Virus record (IMG/VR): IMGVR_UViG_3300034071_002576
Span: 1 to 64,000 of that record
Source of the DNA: a virus
Direction: 5' to 3' (one strand)
DNA length: 64,000 bases
Made by a program: the position numbers and the translations under genes. This document shows positions 12,029-61,342 of this stretch, piece after piece (the first letter of the stretch is position 1; the number at the start of each line of letters is the position of its first letter). Under the pieces are notes generated by a model, which saw only the letters and a program-made list of their open reading frames with translations, did not search any database and was not told where the DNA came from.

Positions 12029-12373
12029 ATGTCAGAGACTCTGACCCCGGCTCAGCGCGAGTATCGCTTTCAGCAGCTTTATGAGATGTATATGGAGGGC
12101 AAGTCATACCGCGAACTCGCCGTCATTTTCAAAATCAGCGCCGAACGCGTCCGCCAGATTTTACATTCGGGCGTTAACGACACTCAATTAAAAGAACTGC
12201 GTCGTCGAATTGATAACCGGTGTATGAATACCTGGAGGGCAAAAGAAGTTTGTAACTTGCTGGATGCGGGTAACAGCTGCCGCAAGGTTTCTGAGATTTT
12301 AAATATCTCGATCTCAGCAGTTAAACGTGTTTCAGCCCGGCATAAGAAAAATGTTCCTGTACGCTTGGGTTAG
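12029..12373 (+). CDS. double helix-turn-helix regulator, sigma region 4-like
   Basis: 114 residues with two HTH units. Residues about 18-48 (MYMEGKSYRELAVIFKISAE followed by RVRQIL) match the sigma-70 region 4/LuxR-type pattern. Residues about 72-102 (LLDAGNSCRKVSEILNISIS) form a second, Hin/resolvase-like HTH. Likely a phage transcription regulator for the following structural genes. No region 2 is present, so it is not a complete sigma factor. Confidence 0.65.
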   Translation: MSETLTPAQREYRFQQLYEMYMEGKSYRELAVIFKISAERVRQILHSGVNDTQLKELRRRIDNRCMNTWRAKEVCNLLDAGNSCRKVSEILNISISAVKRVSARHKKNVPVRLG

Positions 12374-49216: not shown

Positions 49217-49522
49217 TCAGCAGGAGTAGCGGCCGACGACAACATCGTTGCCGCACAGTTTGATCAACAAACCGCTAAAGCATGAGTCGCTAGTGATACC
49301 GTGCCAACCCTTAAAGACTCCGTCAGGGTTAGTGTTCCGCATGAAGTCAGACAAACTGTGATACTGTCCGCGATACTTAAAGAATGAACAGCTATGATCA
49401 AACTCATTAGCATCCATCCAGTCGTATTCTTGGCGGAGTTTGGCACGCTCAGGCTGCGATAGTTCGCAAGCAAAGAACAGCCGGCGCGGTTGGTTGTTGG
49501 TCTTAATAGTCAGTTCAGTCAT
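49217..49522 (-). CDS. small hypothetical protein, 101 aa
   Basis: First gene of the leftward array after the 1.25-kb noncoding stretch. MTELTIKTNNQPRRLFFACE, then YDWMDANEFDHSCSFFKYRG and SDSCFSGLLIKLCG. Six Cys overall; no motif known. Confidence 0.55.
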   Translation of the reverse strand: MTELTIKTNNQPRRLFFACELSQPERAKLRQEYDWMDANEFDHSCSFFKYRGQYHSLSDFMRNTNPDGVFKGWHGITSDSCFSGLLIKLCGNDVVVGRYSC

Positions 49523-49997
49523 ACTATGTACCTGTTGAAACTGTTAGACATGAGGGAAGAATCCCTCACCAAACTGTAAGCTTGGGGAGAGAATCGTTAC
49601 AGCTTCATGATCAATTGTGATCACATCTGATCCTTAATTGATCCGCCCCGCTGACAAGTTAATGACATTCAGGGATCTCTCAAACAACAACTCTCCGGAG
49701 AAAGTTGAAACATAATGCCTAGCATGTAGTTAGTTACAGCGTACAGAATGATCATTGGCTGATAACTGGCCCCGCCATCCTACGGATCGACGCCGTGGTG
49801 AGGGGTCAATGTCCAATGGCCAGCGTACCTGCATCAGAGACAGATACGCTGGACAAGATCTGTACGTTGTAACTAGCTACAGCCTGACAAGTTAGGTTGT
49901 ATTCAGCTGCAACCTGACAAGGGTTGCTGACATTTAGTGTCACTAGTTGTCTTAGTTACAGACAAGATACCCGCTGACAAGTCGCGATATAGGGGGA
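49523..49997. promoter_or_regulatory. noncoding region with CTGACAAG direct repeats
   Basis: No supported ORF. CTGACAAG occurs at 49651, 49884, 49914 and 49974, the last three spaced 30 and 60 nt apart, with a partial CTGACAT at 49927. GTTACAG/CTACAG also recurs between them. Ordered direct repeats next to the start of a long leftward array suggest a replication origin or a regulator-binding array. A hairpin element also found at 59684 lies at 49820-49852. Confidence 0.45.
49820..49852. repeat. dispersed hairpin element, copy 1
   Basis: CCAGCGTACCTG and CAGATACGCTGG form a stem around a 9-nt loop. The 12-mer CCAGCGTACCTG recurs, on the other strand, in a hairpin at 59684-59722. Both copies are intergenic. 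Confidence 0.5.
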
Positions 49998-50447
49998 GAA
50001 CGTGAGCGGGTAGGGTTCGCCTACCGGATAATGCCCACGTGGCACCGCTTGTGGGGGAACTTCCGCGCCCACTTCATCGCTTAAGTATTGAACAGTTAGC
50101 TAACCGATCGGCTACCCGTGCTAACCCGCACCGGTTTAGCTAACTATTCTGTTGTCGAGGTTCTTTCACCTAGATACCTTTAAGATCCCGCCGCTCACGT
50201 TCGGTCACACTATGCCTGCCCTTGCCTACACTTCGGGGATGTACTCCCTACCATCGGCAGCAGTGCGCGGAGACCGTTCGGCCTGGCGCGGGTTCTCTCG
50301 GGTTGTCTAGGTGCCCTGGCGGCGTGGCTTGCGCCCCGTTCCTCCAGTGACACCAAGATCGCCCATAACCGGTTCGCCTGTCAACCACCTAGGGCTAGTT
50401 CTCAGCCGGTCTGAGGATTGGCACACAATGCCAGGGTCCGCACCTAG
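49998..50447. ncRNA. candidate large structured RNA region
   Basis: No ORF, but several long complementary segments. GAACGTGAGCGG (49998) pairs with CCGCTCACGTTC (50191), 12 bp. Inside it, GGTAGG/CCTACC closes a GTTCG loop (50009-50025), and AGTTAGCTAA pairs with TTAGCTAACT (50094/50136). A second domain has CTAGGTGCCCTGGC (50307) pairing with GCCAGGG-tccg-CACCTAG (50430-50447), 14 bp with one bulge, enclosing GGCG/CGCC (50321) and CTCAG/CTGAG (50401). Strand not determined. The size and nesting recall large phage-linked RNAs such as GOLLD and ROOL, but I see no specific homology. Confidence 0.45.
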
Positions 50448-50732
50448 TTAAAAGACGAAACGCGCGGCGCACGCGCAACTACCACGCCAGCGGCCCGGCC
50501 GTCAAGCGTTCGAAACGACAGATGATAGGACCACCACCCAGTACAGATGAACTATAACTACGTTCACAAAGTTAAATATACAACTTCACATCACTAAATG
50601 ATACTTAGTGCGGCGCTACTCATCACATAGGCCGGCGCTATGTATACACAATTGTCCGCAATCCGCCCTTTTTTTTATATATAGGCTTACACGACGGCGC
50701 CGGCGAGAACCCAAAAATAATCTTGCGGGGAA
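50448..50732. other. noncoding remainder with small hairpins
   Basis: No supported gene. Small hairpins: GCGCG/CGCGC (50461-50476), CGTT/AACG (about 50508), ACATAG/CTATGT around GCCGGCG (50625-50643). A run of eight T follows CCGCCC at about 50669, possibly the 3' end of a rightward transcript, though the preceding stem is weak. Confidence 0.35.
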
Positions 50733-50734
50733 AA

Positions 50735-50752
50735 CGGGGTGAAACCTCCCCG
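50735..50752 (-). terminator. probable terminator of 50776-51102
   Basis: CGGGG and CCCCG close an 8-nt loop, and TTTT follows on the minus strand. Placed 24 nt beyond the stop of the leftward gene. Confidence 0.6.
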
Positions 50753-50775
50753 AATATCAGCATAATAACAGCTTT

Positions 50776-51102
50776 TTACTCGAAGCGAACGAATAATTCG
50801 TCTGGATGTTCGTCAAAAAACTGTAATGTTGCCGGACAGAGCCACCCTTTCATGGAATTTTCGTAGGAATACCAGGCTCCTCCCTGTTCCATTTCAGTTT
50901 TTACGAGTTTTCCGTGCGAATGAGGAAAATTTCTTGCTGAAAAAATAATTCTGTGCGACTCTTTTGCTGGATCACTGAAGTTTTTAATCAAAAAGTCAAT
51001 CATTTCAGGCATTCCGCAAACGAATGGTTCATCTCTGAGCCCTCTGGAGAGATCTGTAAAGGCCCACGTATCGCAATAGCGATAAATTTTGATTGACATC
51101 AT
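50776..51102 (-). CDS. hypothetical protein, DUF6717-like
   Basis: 108 residues from the ATG at 51102 (ATG at 51099 and GTG at 51114 possible). IYRYCDTWAFTDLSRGLRDE then PFVCGMPEMI, SARNFPHSHGKLV and WLCPATLQFFDEHPDELFVR. This arrangement resembles a small uncharacterised family found in phages and cyanobacteria (YxxxTWVFDDxxxGLxxEPFV...GWLCPAL). Monocistronic, with its own terminator. Confidence 0.55.
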   Translation of the reverse strand: MMSIKIYRYCDTWAFTDLSRGLRDEPFVCGMPEMIDFLIKNFSDPAKESHRIIFSARNFPHSHGKLVKTEMEQGGAWYSYENSMKGWLCPATLQFFDEHPDELFVRFE

Positions 51103-51223
51103 GGCGTTTGACACAGGGTACGGTGTTTTTGTGATTGCTTATCGAGTATACAGTATCGCGAGAGGCCGCCTACCCGGCTTTTTTTGTTTTTTGTTTTAGG
51201 ATGTAGCAAGGGTTTTCAGGCGC
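51103..51223. promoter_or_regulatory. divergent intergenic region
   Basis: About 120 nt between divergent genes. On the plus strand GCCG-CCTACC-CGGC followed by seven T (51168-51187) looks like a small terminator or attenuator upstream of 51224. No clear promoter hexamers. Confidence 0.35.
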
Positions 51224-53491
51224 ATGTACTCGTACGGATATAAAGTTCCCGAGGTGCAAAGTCGCGTTGCGCGTCAGAGACAACCTGTAGAACCTGACAA
51301 CGTCATTCCCGACCCCTCCGCGGAAGACGTTATTGCTACAGAAAATACGCTTCCTCCCGCTCCGCCTAATTCGTTGAGTCCTAGAGAATTTTTTGAGTCC
51401 CAGATTCTTCCGCAAGTTAGAAGTGTTATAGGTGACTCTGGCGTTGATGATGCTTATCTGCGCACTATACGCGAAGATACTCGGCAAAGTTTTCTACGCG
51501 ATATAGAGGAATCTGACCGGAGAAATCTTGAGCAACTTCGAGGAACTCCTGTTTCTATACCCATTCAGTTCCCCCAGCCTATTTCTCTAACAGGACTCGG
51601 TTCTGCTCATACGCAACCTGGTATTCCCGGTCTTTTTGCCCAAGTTGAGGCTTCGAACGAGGGGGTGGAAGCGCTACGTAAACAAAGAGTCGCGGATGCT
51701 TTTGGCGATCTTCTTTCAAAATATCCAGAACTTAATCGAGTTTTATATGCGGCACCTGCTACGCAGAATAAAGCTCTGCGTGTTAAGAAGTCAGGTTTTG
51801 AACCTTATTTAGATTATGTAGACAAAACACAAGTATTTTCTTCTCCGGAGTCTCGCGCTGGTGTTTATAACGAAATTATCGGTGAATACGCTTCTTTAGA
51901 AGACAACCCAGATAAGCGTTCTTTGCTTGCTGAGGCACTTAGAGAGACTGAACAAGACTATACGAGTGGCGATCCAGAGCGTCAGAGTAGAGCTCGAAAG
52001 TTTTTACAAAATGTGTTGGACGACCCCGCGACACTCGAACGCATAGAAACGCCTTCGTTTCGTGAAAACCGACCCGTTATTGGCGGCGGTGGCTACGAAC
52101 CTGTAAAGGATAATCCGTTGGTTAAGAGGATTAATCAGCGAGCTAAAGCTTTTAATAATTTATACAGTCAATTAGATCTTCAAGATCGGCTAAATATAAC
52201 TGATGTTTATCCTGGTTTGCGATTTTCCGGGATCAAACAAGGTGATCAAGCCGGTTTTTATTTAGATCCGGACACTAAAGAAGTTTCCGGTGTTGATTTC
52301 AATGATCCCGAGGCTTATGGGGTCAATGTGACTATGAGCGCCCCCGGAAGTATCTCTCTCGAGGAGTTTGATAACTATAACGTAGGTTCTGAGGTCTCTA
52401 AAAATGCTCTGCGTTTCTTAGCCGATTATCCTGTTACGACTCAAACAAGCGTAAGTTTTACCACGCGTGAACCCGGTTACAGCGAAAGCAGCTACGGCGC
52501 TAAGTTGTTGCCGTCCGAGCTTGTCGGTCCTGTAACGTCTTTTGTTTCAGATACAGCTTTCCGAGGACTTCGTCCTGGAACACTCGTTGTTAATAGTCCG
52601 CTTAGCTCTAATGATTTATACGACAAACGAATAGAGACGGGTAAATCGGGAAATGAAAGCAATACTTTACGCCGCTTACAACCTTTCATAGATTCGAATA
52701 GCCCACTACCTAATCTGCGTGGAATAGCTTATACCTCAGCAGGTTTCGGTCCCGTAAGCGAGGACAAGACGCAGCTTTCATATGTAGATGACAAAGGTCA
52801 AGCCATACCGATTCAGTTAGGACGTGCTGAAGTTCCTTTAAAAGGCAGGGTTGCTGTTCGCGATGCTGGAGGTGCTTCTGTTTTTACTCCCGCACTTCCT
52901 GCTTCTTCTACTCCGCGTTACTACGGACTGGATCCTGTTTCGGGAGCAGCGTTAGGTGGAGCCGAAGTATTACGTAATCTTCGGCGCGTTCCTTCTGCTT
53001 TACTCCCCGGTGCCGCTGATTTGATTCCGAGTCCCGAAGCTGTACGTACTGGTTATCAACAAGGTCCTGTAGCTATGGGTAAGCAGATGGCGCAGGAGTT
53101 TGTACAGAGTTTACCTACTGCCGCAGCTGCTGCTGGTGTTCTGTCCACGCCGCTAGCCGCGCCCTTGGCCCCAGGTATCGGTGCTGGCCTCGTGGGAACT
53201 GCCGGAGCACGGGCGTTGAATGAGGTTGTTCGGCAGGAAACTGGCGAAGGTATAGTTCCCAAGCTGCGCCAGGCTATCGGGACTGCACCGCGCACAGGTG
53301 CTGCTAGTCCTTCCCGTGCCAAATCACGTCCTTTAACTGCACAGGTTCGCCCTTTGACTACTGCGCAGCGGGCGGAGGTGACTCGGCAGCAGAACCGGAA
53401 TGAACTTCAGCGTCGTATTGAGTTGGCCCAGCAGCGGTTCAACCCTGGCAAACTTGAGTTTGGCTTGTCTGAGTTGTTGCGCGGTCGTTGA
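51224..53491 (+). CDS. large putative virion protein
   Basis: 755 residues. Extended Pro-rich start, long charged helical part (about 65-300), then beta-rich segments. From about 590 there is a hydrophobic Ala/Gly/Pro-rich stretch (LPTAAAAAGVLSTPLAAPLA) followed by a basic Gln/Arg tail. No catalytic motif. It could be an internal virion or ejection protein, judged by size, the membrane-active-looking segment and the following small structural gene. Not recognised as a tape measure. Confidence 0.55.
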   Translation: MYSYGYKVPEVQSRVARQRQPVEPDNVIPDPSAEDVIATENTLPPAPPNSLSPREFFESQILPQVRSVIGDSGVDDAYLRTIREDTRQSFLRDIEESDRRNLEQLRGTPVSIPIQFPQPISLTGLGSAHTQPGIPGLFAQVEASNEGVEALRKQRVADAFGDLLSKYPELNRVLYAAPATQNKALRVKKSGFEPYLDYVDKTQVFSSPESRAGVYNEIIGEYASLEDNPDKRSLLAEALRETEQDYTSGDPERQSRARKFLQNVLDDPATLERIETPSFRENRPVIGGGGYEPVKDNPLVKRINQRAKAFNNLYSQLDLQDRLNITDVYPGLRFSGIKQGDQAGFYLDPDTKEVSGVDFNDPEAYGVNVTMSAPGSISLEEFDNYNVGSEVSKNALRFLADYPVTTQTSVSFTTREPGYSESSYGAKLLPSELVGPVTSFVSDTAFRGLRPGTLVVNSPLSSNDLYDKRIETGKSGNESNTLRRLQPFIDSNSPLPNLRGIAYTSAGFGPVSEDKTQLSYVDDKGQAIPIQLGRAEVPLKGRVAVRDAGGASVFTPALPASSTPRYYGLDPVSGAALGGAEVLRNLRRVPSALLPGAADLIPSPEAVRTGYQQGPVAMGKQMAQEFVQSLPTAAAAAGVLSTPLAAPLAPGIGAGLVGTAGARALNEVVRQETGEGIVPKLRQAIGTAPRTGAASPSRAKSRPLTAQVRPLTTAQRAEVTRQQNRNELQRRIELAQQRFNPGKLEFGLSELLRGR

Positions 53492-54239: not shown

Positions 54240-54340
54240 CACCCAGTGCGAGCCAACGGATAGGACGGCCCCTCACTCGGTACCGGACGCGGTGCTTTGA
54301 CGTGAGACCGGCGATGCGGGTTCGAATCCTGCCTGGGTGA
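54240..54340 (+). tRNA. aberrant tRNA-like element
   Basis: The acceptor strands CACCCAG and CTGGGTG pair fully, and the T arm GCGGG-TTCGAAT-CCTGC is canonical, followed by an unpaired A; CCA is not encoded. The element is 101 nt, too long. CTCAC pairs with GTGAG at the place of the anticodon stem but encloses 25 nt rather than 7. Removing 18 of these would leave CTTTGAC, a glutamine (UUG)-like loop. The D arm is poor (GCC/GGC). Functional tRNA, pseudogene or tRNA-like regulatory RNA cannot be told apart. Confidence 0.45.
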
Positions 54341-54369
54341 TTCATATCAGGCACATCCAACTTTATTAC

Positions 54370-55005
54370 ATGAGTTATCTAAATCACAATCTGCCTACAT
54401 TTACCTGCTATATCCGCAACGAATTTCTATATAATCATAAGAAGGGCCACGGTGAAGTGACGCTATGTGACGTCCATTCAGTCGCCTCTTTGGAGAAACG
54501 CGTTCCCTTATTTGAAGTCTTTTTAGAGAACGGTGTTAACTGGACGAGGCGTCCGATACATGCCCTTTGCTGGAAGCCCGACGCGCCTAAGCCTGAGCTT
54601 AATGAATGTATGTGGTGGGACTGTTTCTCTCCGTATATCGACGTACAGGTTCGGTCGCGCCTCTCGAATTTACGCGCCCAGCTGATTACGTTTAAGGGGG
54701 AGAAAAAGGGCGGTATCTACATGTTCACCCTTGACTGGTCGTGGGAGTCTAAATCGACCTTGAATACAAACTTCAGCGAAACCCCGGAGCACAAGTGTGC
54801 GCACTTCTTCCGAATGGATGATGGCAACTTTTACGCGTACCCTAATAACCGAATTATTTGGTACGACGACGCATGGCTTAAGAATCGAATTGAAAAAAAT
54901 CCTGGGTATGAGATTGACTTGACAGAGTACAGCGTAGAGAATTCAAGAATGCTTGAAACGTCTGATCACTTTATGTATGAGACAGTAAACACAGGCGACC
55001 AGTAG
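54370..55005 (+). CDS. conserved hypothetical phage protein
   Basis: 211 residues from the ATG at 54370; a GTG at 54337 would overlap the tRNA-like element. Begins MSYLNHNLPTFTCYIRNEFL then HGEVTLCDVHSVASLEKRVP. I recognise PTFTCYIRNEFLY...GHGE as a widespread phage protein of unknown function. Rich in Trp, Tyr, Phe and His. Possibly involved in takeover or structure. Confidence 0.6.
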   Translation: MSYLNHNLPTFTCYIRNEFLYNHKKGHGEVTLCDVHSVASLEKRVPLFEVFLENGVNWTRRPIHALCWKPDAPKPELNECMWWDCFSPYIDVQVRSRLSNLRAQLITFKGEKKGGIYMFTLDWSWESKSTLNTNFSETPEHKCAHFFRMDDGNFYAYPNNRIIWYDDAWLKNRIEKNPGYEIDLTEYSVENSRMLETSDHFMYETVNTGDQ

Positions 55006-58362: not shown

Positions 58363-59477
58363 TGTCTATCGAAATTAATGGCGCTGGTGTTATCACCGGT
58401 GTAGATAGCCTCAGCACTCCTGCTGTTACTAACGCGGCGGGTTCGGCTTCCGCTCCCAGTATTACGTTTACTGGTGACAGTAATACTGGTATATATTCTC
58501 CGGCAGCGGATACTATTGCTTTTACAGAGGGTGGCGTCGAATCTTTAAGGATTGATTCTTCAGGAAGAGTAGGGATTGGCTCTACTGCGCCTGATGCTCC
58601 ACTACAAGTAAACTCCGCTGCCGTTGGTGGCGCTGTAAATGATGGCATCAAGATTCACATGCCCGCCAGTTTTGGCGGCGGTGGGACGGGGAACAGCTTG
58701 TTATTTACGGCCTTAAATGGATCATTTGCTCAAGTAAACTATTCATCTATTGCAAGTTTAATCGAAACAAACACTGCAGGATCTCATTCTGGTATTCTAA
58801 CCTTCAGAACTGCTTCAGGTGGCACTAATACCGAACGCGCCCGCATCGACAGCTCGGGACGCCTGTTAGTTGGCACGTCTACAGGTGTTGACGGAGCCTT
58901 GGTGCGCATAGAAGGTGGCATTTCTATCAACGGAGTAAACAATACATCTGCTGTTAACTCTGCTGGCCATTACATCTCACCTGTCGTCAACAGTGCTGGT
59001 CAGAATACATGTAAATCAGCGACTAATGATACAAGTGGGTCGGGAGACCTGTGGCAATACTCGCGAATCAATACGGATGGAGTTATCTTCAGATTCCATA
59101 GAGGAACAACATCGGTCGGAACTGTTTCAATCACATCTAGCTCTACTTCTTATAACACATCTTCCGACTACCGTCTAAAGGAAAACGTTGTTCCACTAAC
59201 TGGTGCTGTTGACCGCATCAATCAGCTTCAGGTTCACCGCTTTAACTTCATCACAGAGCCCGACAAGACAGTTGACGGTTTCATTGCTCACGAAGCCCAA
59301 GCCGTTGTCCCCGAGTGCGTTACTGGAACAAAGGATGAAGTTGATGCTGACGGCAACCCCGTCTACCAAGGCATTGACCAGTCCAAGCTAGTGCCTTTGC
59401 TGACGGCTGCATTGCAGGAAGCACTTCAGAAGATCGAAACCCTTGAGCAGCGTCTAAATGATGCTGGCATTGCCTAG
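58362..59477 (+). CDS. tail fibre with S74 chaperone, second copy
   Basis: 371 residues. Body units include GDSNTGIYSPAADTIAFTEG, SSGRVGIGSTAPDAPLQV and TERARIDSSGRLLVGTST. An S74 domain starts near residue 268 with SDYRLKENVV and ends in a coiled coil (ALQKIETLEQRLNDAGIA). The Ser-Asp pair at the cleavage site is present. It shares DNA blocks with the fibre at 13974 and is followed by the same 15-nt sequence TAGTCCTACTCNCTA. Probable alternative or additional receptor-binding protein. Confidence 0.85.
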   Translation: MSIEINGAGVITGVDSLSTPAVTNAAGSASAPSITFTGDSNTGIYSPAADTIAFTEGGVESLRIDSSGRVGIGSTAPDAPLQVNSAAVGGAVNDGIKIHMPASFGGGGTGNSLLFTALNGSFAQVNYSSIASLIETNTAGSHSGILTFRTASGGTNTERARIDSSGRLLVGTSTGVDGALVRIEGGISINGVNNTSAVNSAGHYISPVVNSAGQNTCKSATNDTSGSGDLWQYSRINTDGVIFRFHRGTTSVGTVSITSSSTSYNTSSDYRLKENVVPLTGAVDRINQLQVHRFNFITEPDKTVDGFIAHEAQAVVPECVTGTKDEVDADGNPVYQGIDQSKLVPLLTAALQEALQKIETLEQRLNDAGIA

Positions 59478-59493
59478 TAGTCCTACTCACTAA

Positions 59494-59598
59494 ATGAGCT
59501 ACCCCTCTTACTACTGCCAGCACTGCGGTCAACAAATCGGTTGGGTCGGTCGGTTCTTCCAACTGATCCGCCTTCCATTGCATCGTTGCCTGGCGTAG
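59494..59598 (+). CDS. 34-aa zinc-knuckle-like peptide
   Basis: ATG at 59494. MSYPSYYCQHCGQQIGWVGR ... LHRCLA, with CxxC and a later HRC, so a zinc site is possible. I have the impression this short form recurs next to fibre genes in cyanophages. It is bracketed by two short sequences that also occur in the same order, without a gene between them, after the S74 fibre at 13974. Confidence 0.5.
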   Translation: MSYPSYYCQHCGQQIGWVGRFFQLIRLPLHRCLA

Positions 59599-59621
59599 TA
59601 GTCACCTTCACTACTAATTCC

Positions 59622-59649
59622 AGCTCGGTTTCTCGACCGAGCTTTTTTT
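59622..59649 (+). terminator. intrinsic terminator of the second fibre block
   Basis: AGCTCGGT and ACCGAGCT form a perfect 8-bp stem with a TTCTCG loop, then seven T. Ends the rightward unit that begins near 57118. Confidence 0.9.
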
Positions 59650-59683
59650 ATGTTTGTAAATTTCCCACGTGGGCACGGCTCTG

Positions 59684-59722
59684 TGTCCAGAGCACCTGCG
59701 TAAGGCACAGGTACGCTGGACA
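59684..59722. repeat. dispersed hairpin element, copy 2
   Basis: TGTCCAG and CTGGACA form the outer stem, CCTG and CAGG the inner one. The reverse strand reads CCAGCGTACCTG, identical to 12 nt of the element at 49820. Located between the fibre terminator and the inverted third fibre gene. Confidence 0.5.
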
Positions 59723-59746
59723 GATTAGCGGGCGGGGCTACGCGGC

Positions 59747-61342
59747 TCAGCAAGCCAGCAGCACGCAAGGCACGCAGTAGCTGCCATCGTCGTAGGTGCA
59801 GGTGATGTGGTTGGAAGTCACCTTGGCGATGGTTTTGCTGCGAACGATGTCATCGTCTTGGGGCTTGGCGGTGCCGTCACCAGCAGACATCAGCAGTTGA
59901 CCGCGATGCACTGGAATTCCCGCTGAGATACGGATGATGAAGTCACCCGTCATTGCGCAGTAGAAATCATCGGTGTAGGTGTCATCGTCATCGTCCCAGC
60001 ACTGGAACACGCCGGCCACGTTTGGGTCGCCTTCAACGTCACTCACCTGGGTACGGTTGAGTTGCTCATTATCTTCTTCACCCCATGCACACATCTCGTC
60101 AATGTTTTTCAGCACAGTACCGCGCAAAATTTCAGTGCGTTCCGCTCCACCAGGGAGCTGGGACCAGCGACTTAGGTGAGCACCGTTGTAGCTGACGGTT
60201 GTGCCCGAAACGGAAATAGAACCTTCCGATGTTTGTGCTTGTTGAAAATCAATAAGCGTTCCATCGCTTGCTGGTCTATTTATGAGCTGTCCACCAACGC
60301 TGTTTACCTGCCAAATGCGCTGAGTAGTTGAGTTACTAATATTGCTAAATGCTTGAATGAGTGCCCCGCCAGTGCCTCCTGCTGGGTTGGCGTTGTCAAT
60401 CCGCAAAGCAGCAGAAGTTTCCCCGTTAGCGTCAACGTTTTGCGAAATCCTTAGCGCGTAAGTATTTGCGCCGCTGCTATTACCATTATGGCCTTGGATA
60501 TGTGCTAAACACTGCCCAGATGAGCTGTTATTGTAAACACCAAATAGCAAAGGTTGTTGACCGGAATAGCTGCCAGACGTTCCACCGGGGATGTCAACTA
60601 AACCAGTGGAGGAAATCCTCATCCGCTCCGTCGGGCTGCTCGCTCCGTCGGCGGTAGTGGAGAACACTAAGCGGCCTGGATAATCACCTGATCCAGCATT
60701 TGCATCGGCGGTGCATCGAATCTGTGCGAATGAATTGCCGGACGAGTCGTTAAACTTTATGTAGCCAATGTCCTCGCCCGAGGTGATTGAGGTTGCAGCC
60801 TCTCCACGTTGTATTGAAATAGATCCATGTCCAGTTGGGCCAGTGGTATTTCCTTGAACAACCGCTAAGTCAAACTGGCCATCACCTGCGCTAGGCGCAG
60901 TAGACGTGCCAACTAAGAGGCGTCCCGATGTATCAATACGAGCTCGTTCTGAATCACTCGTCCAAAGGGTTAGAGGTAAGTTGGCCCCCGTTTGGCCTTG
61001 AATACGAAAAGTGCTGCCAATTGAACCAAGTTGGCCAACGCCTGCTCCTGAAGAGTCTCTGATGGCTAGTACGCCTTGGACTGTTAAGGCTTGATCTGGG
61101 CTAGTAGTGCCAATCCCTACTTGCCCTGAAGAGCTAATATAAAGTCGTGCGGAACCCCCCGTGGTGAGCGCAACCTGATCCCCACCAGGACTATAAATAC
61201 CTGTATTCGCGTCGCCAGTTACATAAATAGAAGGGGCGGATGCCGAGCCGGTTTGAATCGCTACGTTGCCGGACGCATCTAGAGCAAGGTTTGTGCTTGC
61301 CGAATCAGGGCTCTTGAGATTGTAGGTATTCAGGGTGCTCAT
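59747..61342 (-). CDS. third fibre-type protein, inverted, with a different C-terminal domain
   Basis: 531 residues. The N-terminal 260 residues use the same unit set as the S74 fibres (GDANTGIYSPGGDQVALTTG, SSSGQVGIGTTSPDQALTVQ, TTADGASSPTERMRI). The C-terminal 150 residues differ: YNGAHLSRWSQLPGG, then LKNIDEMCAWGEEDNEQLN, DFYCAMTGDFIIRISAGIPV and HRGQLLMSAGDGTAKPQDDD. This layout resembles self-cleaving fibre chaperones of the G2 type rather than S74. Lying opposite to the other fibres, it may be an alternative adhesin. Confidence 0.7.
   Translation of the reverse strand: MSTLNTYNLKSPDSASTNLALDASGNVAIQTGSASAPSIYVTGDANTGIYSPGGDQVALTTGGSARLYISSSGQVGIGTTSPDQALTVQGVLAIRDSSGAGVGQLGSIGSTFRIQGQTGANLPLTLWTSDSERARIDTSGRLLVGTSTAPSAGDGQFDLAVVQGNTTGPTGHGSISIQRGEAATSITSGEDIGYIKFNDSSGNSFAQIRCTADANAGSGDYPGRLVFSTTADGASSPTERMRISSTGLVDIPGGTSGSYSGQQPLLFGVYNNSSSGQCLAHIQGHNGNSSGANTYALRISQNVDANGETSAALRIDNANPAGGTGGALIQAFSNISNSTTQRIWQVNSVGGQLINRPASDGTLIDFQQAQTSEGSISVSGTTVSYNGAHLSRWSQLPGGAERTEILRGTVLKNIDEMCAWGEEDNEQLNRTQVSDVEGDPNVAGVFQCWDDDDDTYTDDFYCAMTGDFIIRISAGIPVHRGQLLMSAGDGTAKPQDDDIVRSKTIAKVTSNHITCTYDDGSYCVPCVLLAC

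Follow-up and report, generated by a model that had tools for sequence, protein, structure and literature searches.

A conserved structured noncoding gap in a phage genome and its relatives: a candidate family of large phage RNAs

RESULTS

Gene setting of the noncoding gap

The window, by which we mean the whole 64,000-nucleotide stretch analyzed here, is part of an 86,340-base IMG/VR virus record (IMGVR_UViG_3300034071_002576, positions 1 to 64,000). Between two leftward genes it contains a gap of about 1.25 kb (49523-50775) that is free of open reading frames (ORFs) of at least 60 aa, and a rightward gene starts beyond this gap, at 51224. The left border is formed by the first gene of a leftward operon (49217-49522, minus strand), which encodes a 101-aa protein of phrog_1845, of unknown function. 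The genes around the site are those of a phage, including a leftward primase and a family A DNA polymerase, with tail fibres and lysozyme encoded elsewhere. Coding content is absent over approximately 0.6 to 1 kb: the sole candidate, a small plus-strand ORF in the core domain described below, is not conserved and was rejected, its ATG being replaced by ACG in three relatives (L015, L018, and L050) and its frame being affected by indels of 1 and 10 nt.

A 222-aa protein (54337-55005) shares 82% identity with a protein of Synechococcus phage DSL-LC02, and the best phage match of the window primase is Synechococcus phage S-EIV1 (28.5%); judged from these similarities, the host is likely a cyanobacterium. 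A host search with the 39-bp palindrome described below returned a single Chloroflexi MAG contig, which was discarded as host, the match being probably a chance palindrome. Relative to locus L006 (11437-14006), the window has most of its tail-fibre cassette, which contains two convergent fibre genes, in the opposite orientation (58526-61102), consistent with an invertible cassette.

Relatives carrying the element

Using the 755-aa protein encoded at 51224-53491 as the starting query, we obtained ten IMG/VR loci. The noncoding gap is also conserved (for example, 75% over 1,654 nt in L006). Searching for the imperfect palindrome of 39 bp (49817-49855) gave exact pattern matches in 31 IMG/VR stretches and a core-derived pattern gave 16 matches, while scans with the neighboring 67-aa and 112-aa proteins added zero contigs. 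The order of elements is constant, with the palindrome followed by a variable stretch, the core, a second variable stretch, T8-ATATA, and GGCGAGA. Overall, about 48 IMG/VR contigs, by a hand count over fetched contigs of which some are closely related to one another, contain at least one of the core, the 3' domain, and the promoter-like block, or else a gap that is evidently homologous. The core model (R1) found no match in the group B phages (L003, L007, L013, L020, and L026), yet pieces of their gap align to the element, and this gap may represent a diverged version or only partial homology.

The palindrome, which would form a 39-nt hairpin in RNA, also occurs in L016, L024, L025, L028, L030, L033 to L037, and L039, where the core model found nothing and the full 3' domain was not convincing. 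A second copy of this hairpin, with one mismatch to the pattern, lies at 59684-59722 in the window, just downstream of the leftward tail-fibre gene at 59747-61342, and L006 likewise has a second copy, at 12329-12367.

Neither the window nor the L027 element has DNA similarity to annotated phages, and L013 gave only a 38-nt match at a tRNA end, in four Synechococcus phage records. A literature search from which subscription journals were largely absent found no description of the element.

Conserved secondary structure

A possible large structured RNA had originally been predicted at 49998-50447 from long inverted repeats in this single sequence. That stretch is indeed free of ORFs of at least 60 aa, and the complementarities described for it are present: a 12-bp helix pairs 49998-50009 with 50191-50202 (12/12 bp, spanning 205 nt), an internal helix has its arms at 50090-50103 and 50136-50149, a hairpin lies at 50009-50025, and a 14-bp bulged helix joins CTAGGTGCCCTGG (approximately 50306-50318) to CCAGGGTCCGCACCTAG (approximately 50431-50447). 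The accompanying argument, that such complementarity is unlikely by chance, is not borne out by the one sequence, since folding of 49960-50480 on both strands gave minimum free energy z-scores of only -1.4 on the plus strand (8/100 shuffles as good) and -1.2 on the minus strand.

Comparison among relatives is far more informative and reveals two covarying domains on the minus strand. The core domain (50167-50313) is predicted to form a long unbranched stem of covarying helices, closed by 50167-50173/50307-50313; RNAalifold alignment folding against column shuffles gave z-scores of -7.6 on the minus strand and -5.3 on the plus strand, 96.4% of cells are paired, and both sides have changed in 12/44 pairs. 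The 3' domain (49717-49888) is predicted to consist of a long closing stem (49728-49739/49867-49878) and two arms; here the single-sequence z-scores (49715-49895) are themselves low, at -6.7 and -7.0, those of alignment folding reach approximately -9.5 to -9.9, and both sides have changed in 16/43 pairs. These two counts come from alignments made without a structure model, yet the structures were predicted from those same alignments; with divergent copies included, the counts rise to 22/44 for the core and 26/43 for the 3' domain, in alignments that were fitted to models and hence lean toward the structure.

None of 500 shuffles of either domain equalled the actual data in covariation score, in percentage paired, or in number of both-sided pairs, and the observed value for pair types in the 3' domain was reached by 7/500; this shuffle count should not be read as a probability, since the shuffles do not preserve the relatedness of the sequences. 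When the structures were slid along the alignment, pairing dropped to 25 to 41%; this control does preserve relatedness, though it leans toward a structure that was predicted from the sequences under test. The covariation among relatives lies far beyond chance and refutes a reading of the structure as chance alone, and comparison demonstrates conserved noncoding sequence with base-paired structure in many relatives. The proposal of a large structured RNA, which a lack of covariation would have overturned, is upheld by these two domains, partly through helices other than those first noticed.

Among the smaller elements, the 3' domain contains the 39-nt imperfect-palindrome hairpin (49817-49855, minus strand; found by pattern matches), with a loop consensus of approximately UNYYURAUG; in L050 and L054 its stem letters are replaced and pairing is retained. 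Just 3' of the core, a hairpin domain (50090-50149, minus strand) corresponds to the internal helix of the original prediction; its position is kept in most relatives, and in some of them (e.g., L027, L042, L054, and L002) the stem sequences are unrelated. A small hairpin, GGTAGG/CCTACC (50009-50025, minus strand), shows three compensatory changes in L002, where it reads GACAAG/CTTGTC, and a one-sided change giving G-U on the minus strand in L008.

The anatomy first proposed survives, then, in its internal helix and fails in the 12-bp and 14-bp helices. No more than three phages have the 12-bp helix, namely, the window, L008 (one A-to-G change, giving G-U on the plus strand), and L002 (G-U replacements), and in the remaining relatives the partners pair at chance level only. 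Its right arm falls within the covarying core, and CTAGGTG, one arm of the 14-bp helix, belongs to the core closing helix; both helices compete with the core. The extent was also underestimated: the RNA would run from about 50667 to about 49690, and the strongest domain (49717-49888) lies outside the stretch initially flagged.

A conserved promoter-like block

A promoter-like block lies at 50667-50709 on the minus strand, at the same place in relatives and with a nearly invariant A8; its resemblance to a promoter suggests that role. On the minus strand, the conserved form is TTCTCGCC, 17 to 18 nt, TATWTAAAAAAAAGG, and then ATTGCGGGCAG; in the window, TTCTCGCC at 50702-50709 is separated by an 18-nt spacer from TATATA/A8/GG at 50667-50681. 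The block pattern matches at one place in the window (0.02 expected), and when used alone as a search pattern it retrieved 36 IMG/VR contigs, some not met before. In 18 new loci found in this way, the core model built earlier matched 7 and the 3' model matched 11, every match falling on the block's sense strand; these matches attest to conserved order and orientation and not to the strand itself, because the models were built from that strand. A terminator-like hairpin of the form CGGGG-loop-CCCCG-TTTT (50731-50752, minus strand) follows shortly after the 112-aa DUF6717 gene and overlaps the conserved block upstream of the RNA.

Transcript ends and the relation to the leftward operon

Both ends of the putative transcript were placed by sequence features, the start at the GG near 50667 by the promoter-like block and the end by a terminator-like hairpin with a T-rich tail (49688-49707, minus strand) detected in a pattern scan, which would give a structured noncoding RNA of about 980 nt (49688-50667, minus strand) within the ORF-free gap. 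Several relatives also have a hairpin after the 3' domain; its T-run is weak and not conserved, so that read-through into the operon is possible. The predicted 3' end lies approximately 165 nt ahead of the first gene of the leftward operon, and the distance from the 39-nt hairpin to the leftward gene start is about 290 to 300 nt in many relatives. Between the RNA and the operon there are four GATC sites spaced by 10 to 11 bp (49609-49643), and 2 to 4 GATC at 10-bp spacing occur at the same place in every relative examined; this array is probably a DNA operator outside the RNA and suggests a control region belonging to the operon itself. Immediately ahead of the operon's first gene (49540-49600, minus strand) there is a conserved hairpin pair, GATTCTCTCC-[variable stem]-GAGGGATTC..CCCTC, the stem of which differs in sequence between relatives with pairing kept.

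These observations can be explained by two arrangements. In one, which we consider probable, the RNA is stand-alone, a leftward structured noncoding RNA of about 980 nt made from its own promoter-like block and ending near 49690. In the other, the block would serve as the principal promoter for leftward transcription, and the RNA would act as a structured 5' leader of great length for the operon (replication or early functions), with control over its termination, processing, or translation. Wherever the promoter-like block and the beginning of the leftward operon can both be seen, the element lies between them, and a structured 5' UTR would run on up to the first gene. The cultured Synechococcus phage S-EIV1 bears on the same question: its genome (KJ410740.1; L078, 4438-4537) has a marginal match to the block (E 0.017, the best in the genome) between a leftward gene and a leftward operon, about 400 nt ahead of the latter, where the noncoding stretch is shorter, and neither RNA domain was found in this phage, a combination that fits an operon promoter and counts against a stand-alone RNA. 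Against the leader stand its length, since about 1 kb would be extreme, the terminator-like hairpin after the 3' domain in the window, and the phased GATC array that separates the RNA from the operon. We regard a leader as unlikely, though as the alternative to be taken most seriously, and give the stand-alone RNA roughly twice its weight.

Strand of the RNA

The RNA most likely lies on the minus strand and is read leftward. Both domains fold better on this strand, and among mostly Watson-Crick pairs G-U occurs 56 times on the minus strand versus 27 times on the plus strand; with structures predicted from the plus strand, G-U is still biased to the minus strand (25 versus 13 and 37 versus 19), a bias of about 2:1 that is not overwhelming and derives from cells that are not independent. 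Because the fold, the G-U bias, the 5' block, and the 3' terminator-like hairpin all favor the minus strand, we take the putative transcript to run leftward over about 980 nt.

The opposite arrangement, a plus-strand RNA that would extend from near 49700 to the T8 tract (50669-50676), draws on the fact that most helices can form there too and that T8 could serve as a terminator tract. It is improbable in light of the better folding on the minus strand and the G-U bias to it, and in addition the terminator scan found no hairpin directly before T8, while the spacing of TCTCGCC and TATWTA fits a minus-strand promoter. The minus strand and the promoter are in this sense supported and not proven.

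The palindrome and DNA-level explanations

The gap could also act as DNA, as a replication origin or recombination region in which the inverted repeats serve as cruciforms or protein sites. Such a function would suit the near-divergent junction at which the gap lies and the phased GATC array, as well as a 39-bp imperfect palindrome that recurs in other phages, has a second copy at 59684-59722, and has half-sites that vary like those of a dimer site, CAGRTACKCTGGACA; this half-site pattern cannot settle the question, because the search pattern fixed one position and excluded some pairings. A recombination site is a weakened candidate for the palindrome, as L050 and L054 keep the stem with different letters. 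Long-range helices covarying across about 150 and 170 nt, together with the one-strand bias of the G-U changes, speak against an element acting as DNA; furthermore, no recombinase gene was identified beside the site, the palindrome is single-copy in most relatives, and the GC skew makes no sharp turn there. We rate a DNA element as very improbable.

Chance inverted repeats in a noncoding gap would accord with the ordinary single-sequence folding of the flagged stretch and with the lack of conservation of the 12-bp helix, and are ruled out for practical purposes by all of the comparative results, both alignment folding and covariation.

DISCUSSION

The best reading of the data is that the gap encodes a new family of large structured phage noncoding RNA, either stand-alone or as a long operon leader. 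For the favored stand-alone RNA, transcription would proceed leftward from the promoter-like block (50667-50709) and end near 49690, just before the leftward operon, and the product would fold into the core (50167-50313), the adjacent hairpin (50090-50149), variable linkers, and the 3' domain (49717-49888) with its 39-nt hairpin. In size and setting this product would resemble GOLLD, ROOL, and the ICP1 transcript, and it may function in infection as a structured RNA, perhaps providing a scaffold of RNA alone or of RNA with protein. The fuller proposal, an undescribed phage noncoding RNA family of about 1 kb that is unrelated in sequence to GOLLD, ROOL, and OLE, is expressed from its own conserved promoter in infection, and possibly forms a higher-order RNA or RNA-protein particle, is one toward which we lean by a small measure.

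Large structured RNAs have been described from bacteria and phages in very few cases, and what they do has yet to be explained. Another such family, covarying strongly, equipped with a conserved promoter-like block, and well represented in phages apparently infecting cyanobacteria, would supply independent material on the roles of giant phage RNAs and on how common RNA-only assembly is. The covarying domains are ready constructs for structure work.

An identity with GOLLD, ROOL, or OLE, which the original prediction had put forward for checking, was not supported: Rfam 15 at gathering score returned only tRNAs over the whole window, a search of 49500-51200 at E up to 10 gave nothing convincing, and the GOLLD, ROOL, and OLE models had no match in ten relatives searched with E-value limits of 5 or 0.5. 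These three families, together with self-splicing introns, riboswitches, and all other Rfam families, were ruled out for lack of a model match, even at permissive E-values, in the gap or its relatives. ROOL is shorter than the approximately 980 nt inferred here, and this larger length, like the missing Rfam match, separates the element from ROOL, with which it shares the character of a large structured phage RNA.

GOLLD is often longer than 800 nt, occurs in phages and prophages, often near tRNAs, and has a conserved 3' region with the rest more variable (PMC12286853). Our element would likewise be a large structured phage RNA whose 3' region is conserved and whose remainder varies more. In L003, L013, and L041 a tRNA-Met, encoded on the opposite strand, begins about 105 nt from the T8/A8 tract, and in the window tRNAs are about 6 kb away. 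The element differs from GOLLD in having no Rfam match in the window or its relatives. ROOL is a large structured phage and prophage RNA of unknown function, often near tRNA islands, and GOLLD and ROOL assemble into nanocages, that of GOLLD being homo-oligomeric (PMC12286853). With OLE, described as an RNA of about 600 nt from Gram-positive extremophiles (PMC9723947), the element has in common a large ornate form and extensive covariation, and it differs in host range and in its lack of an Rfam match. The most abundant transcript of the Vibrio phage ICP1 is a noncoding RNA of about 800 nt from an ORF-less space of about 1 kb (gp139-gp140; PMC7567579), a likeness drawn by size and setting. From its sequence and predicted structure, the element appears to be of the GOLLD, ROOL, and ICP1 kind while standing outside the GOLLD, ROOL, and OLE families.
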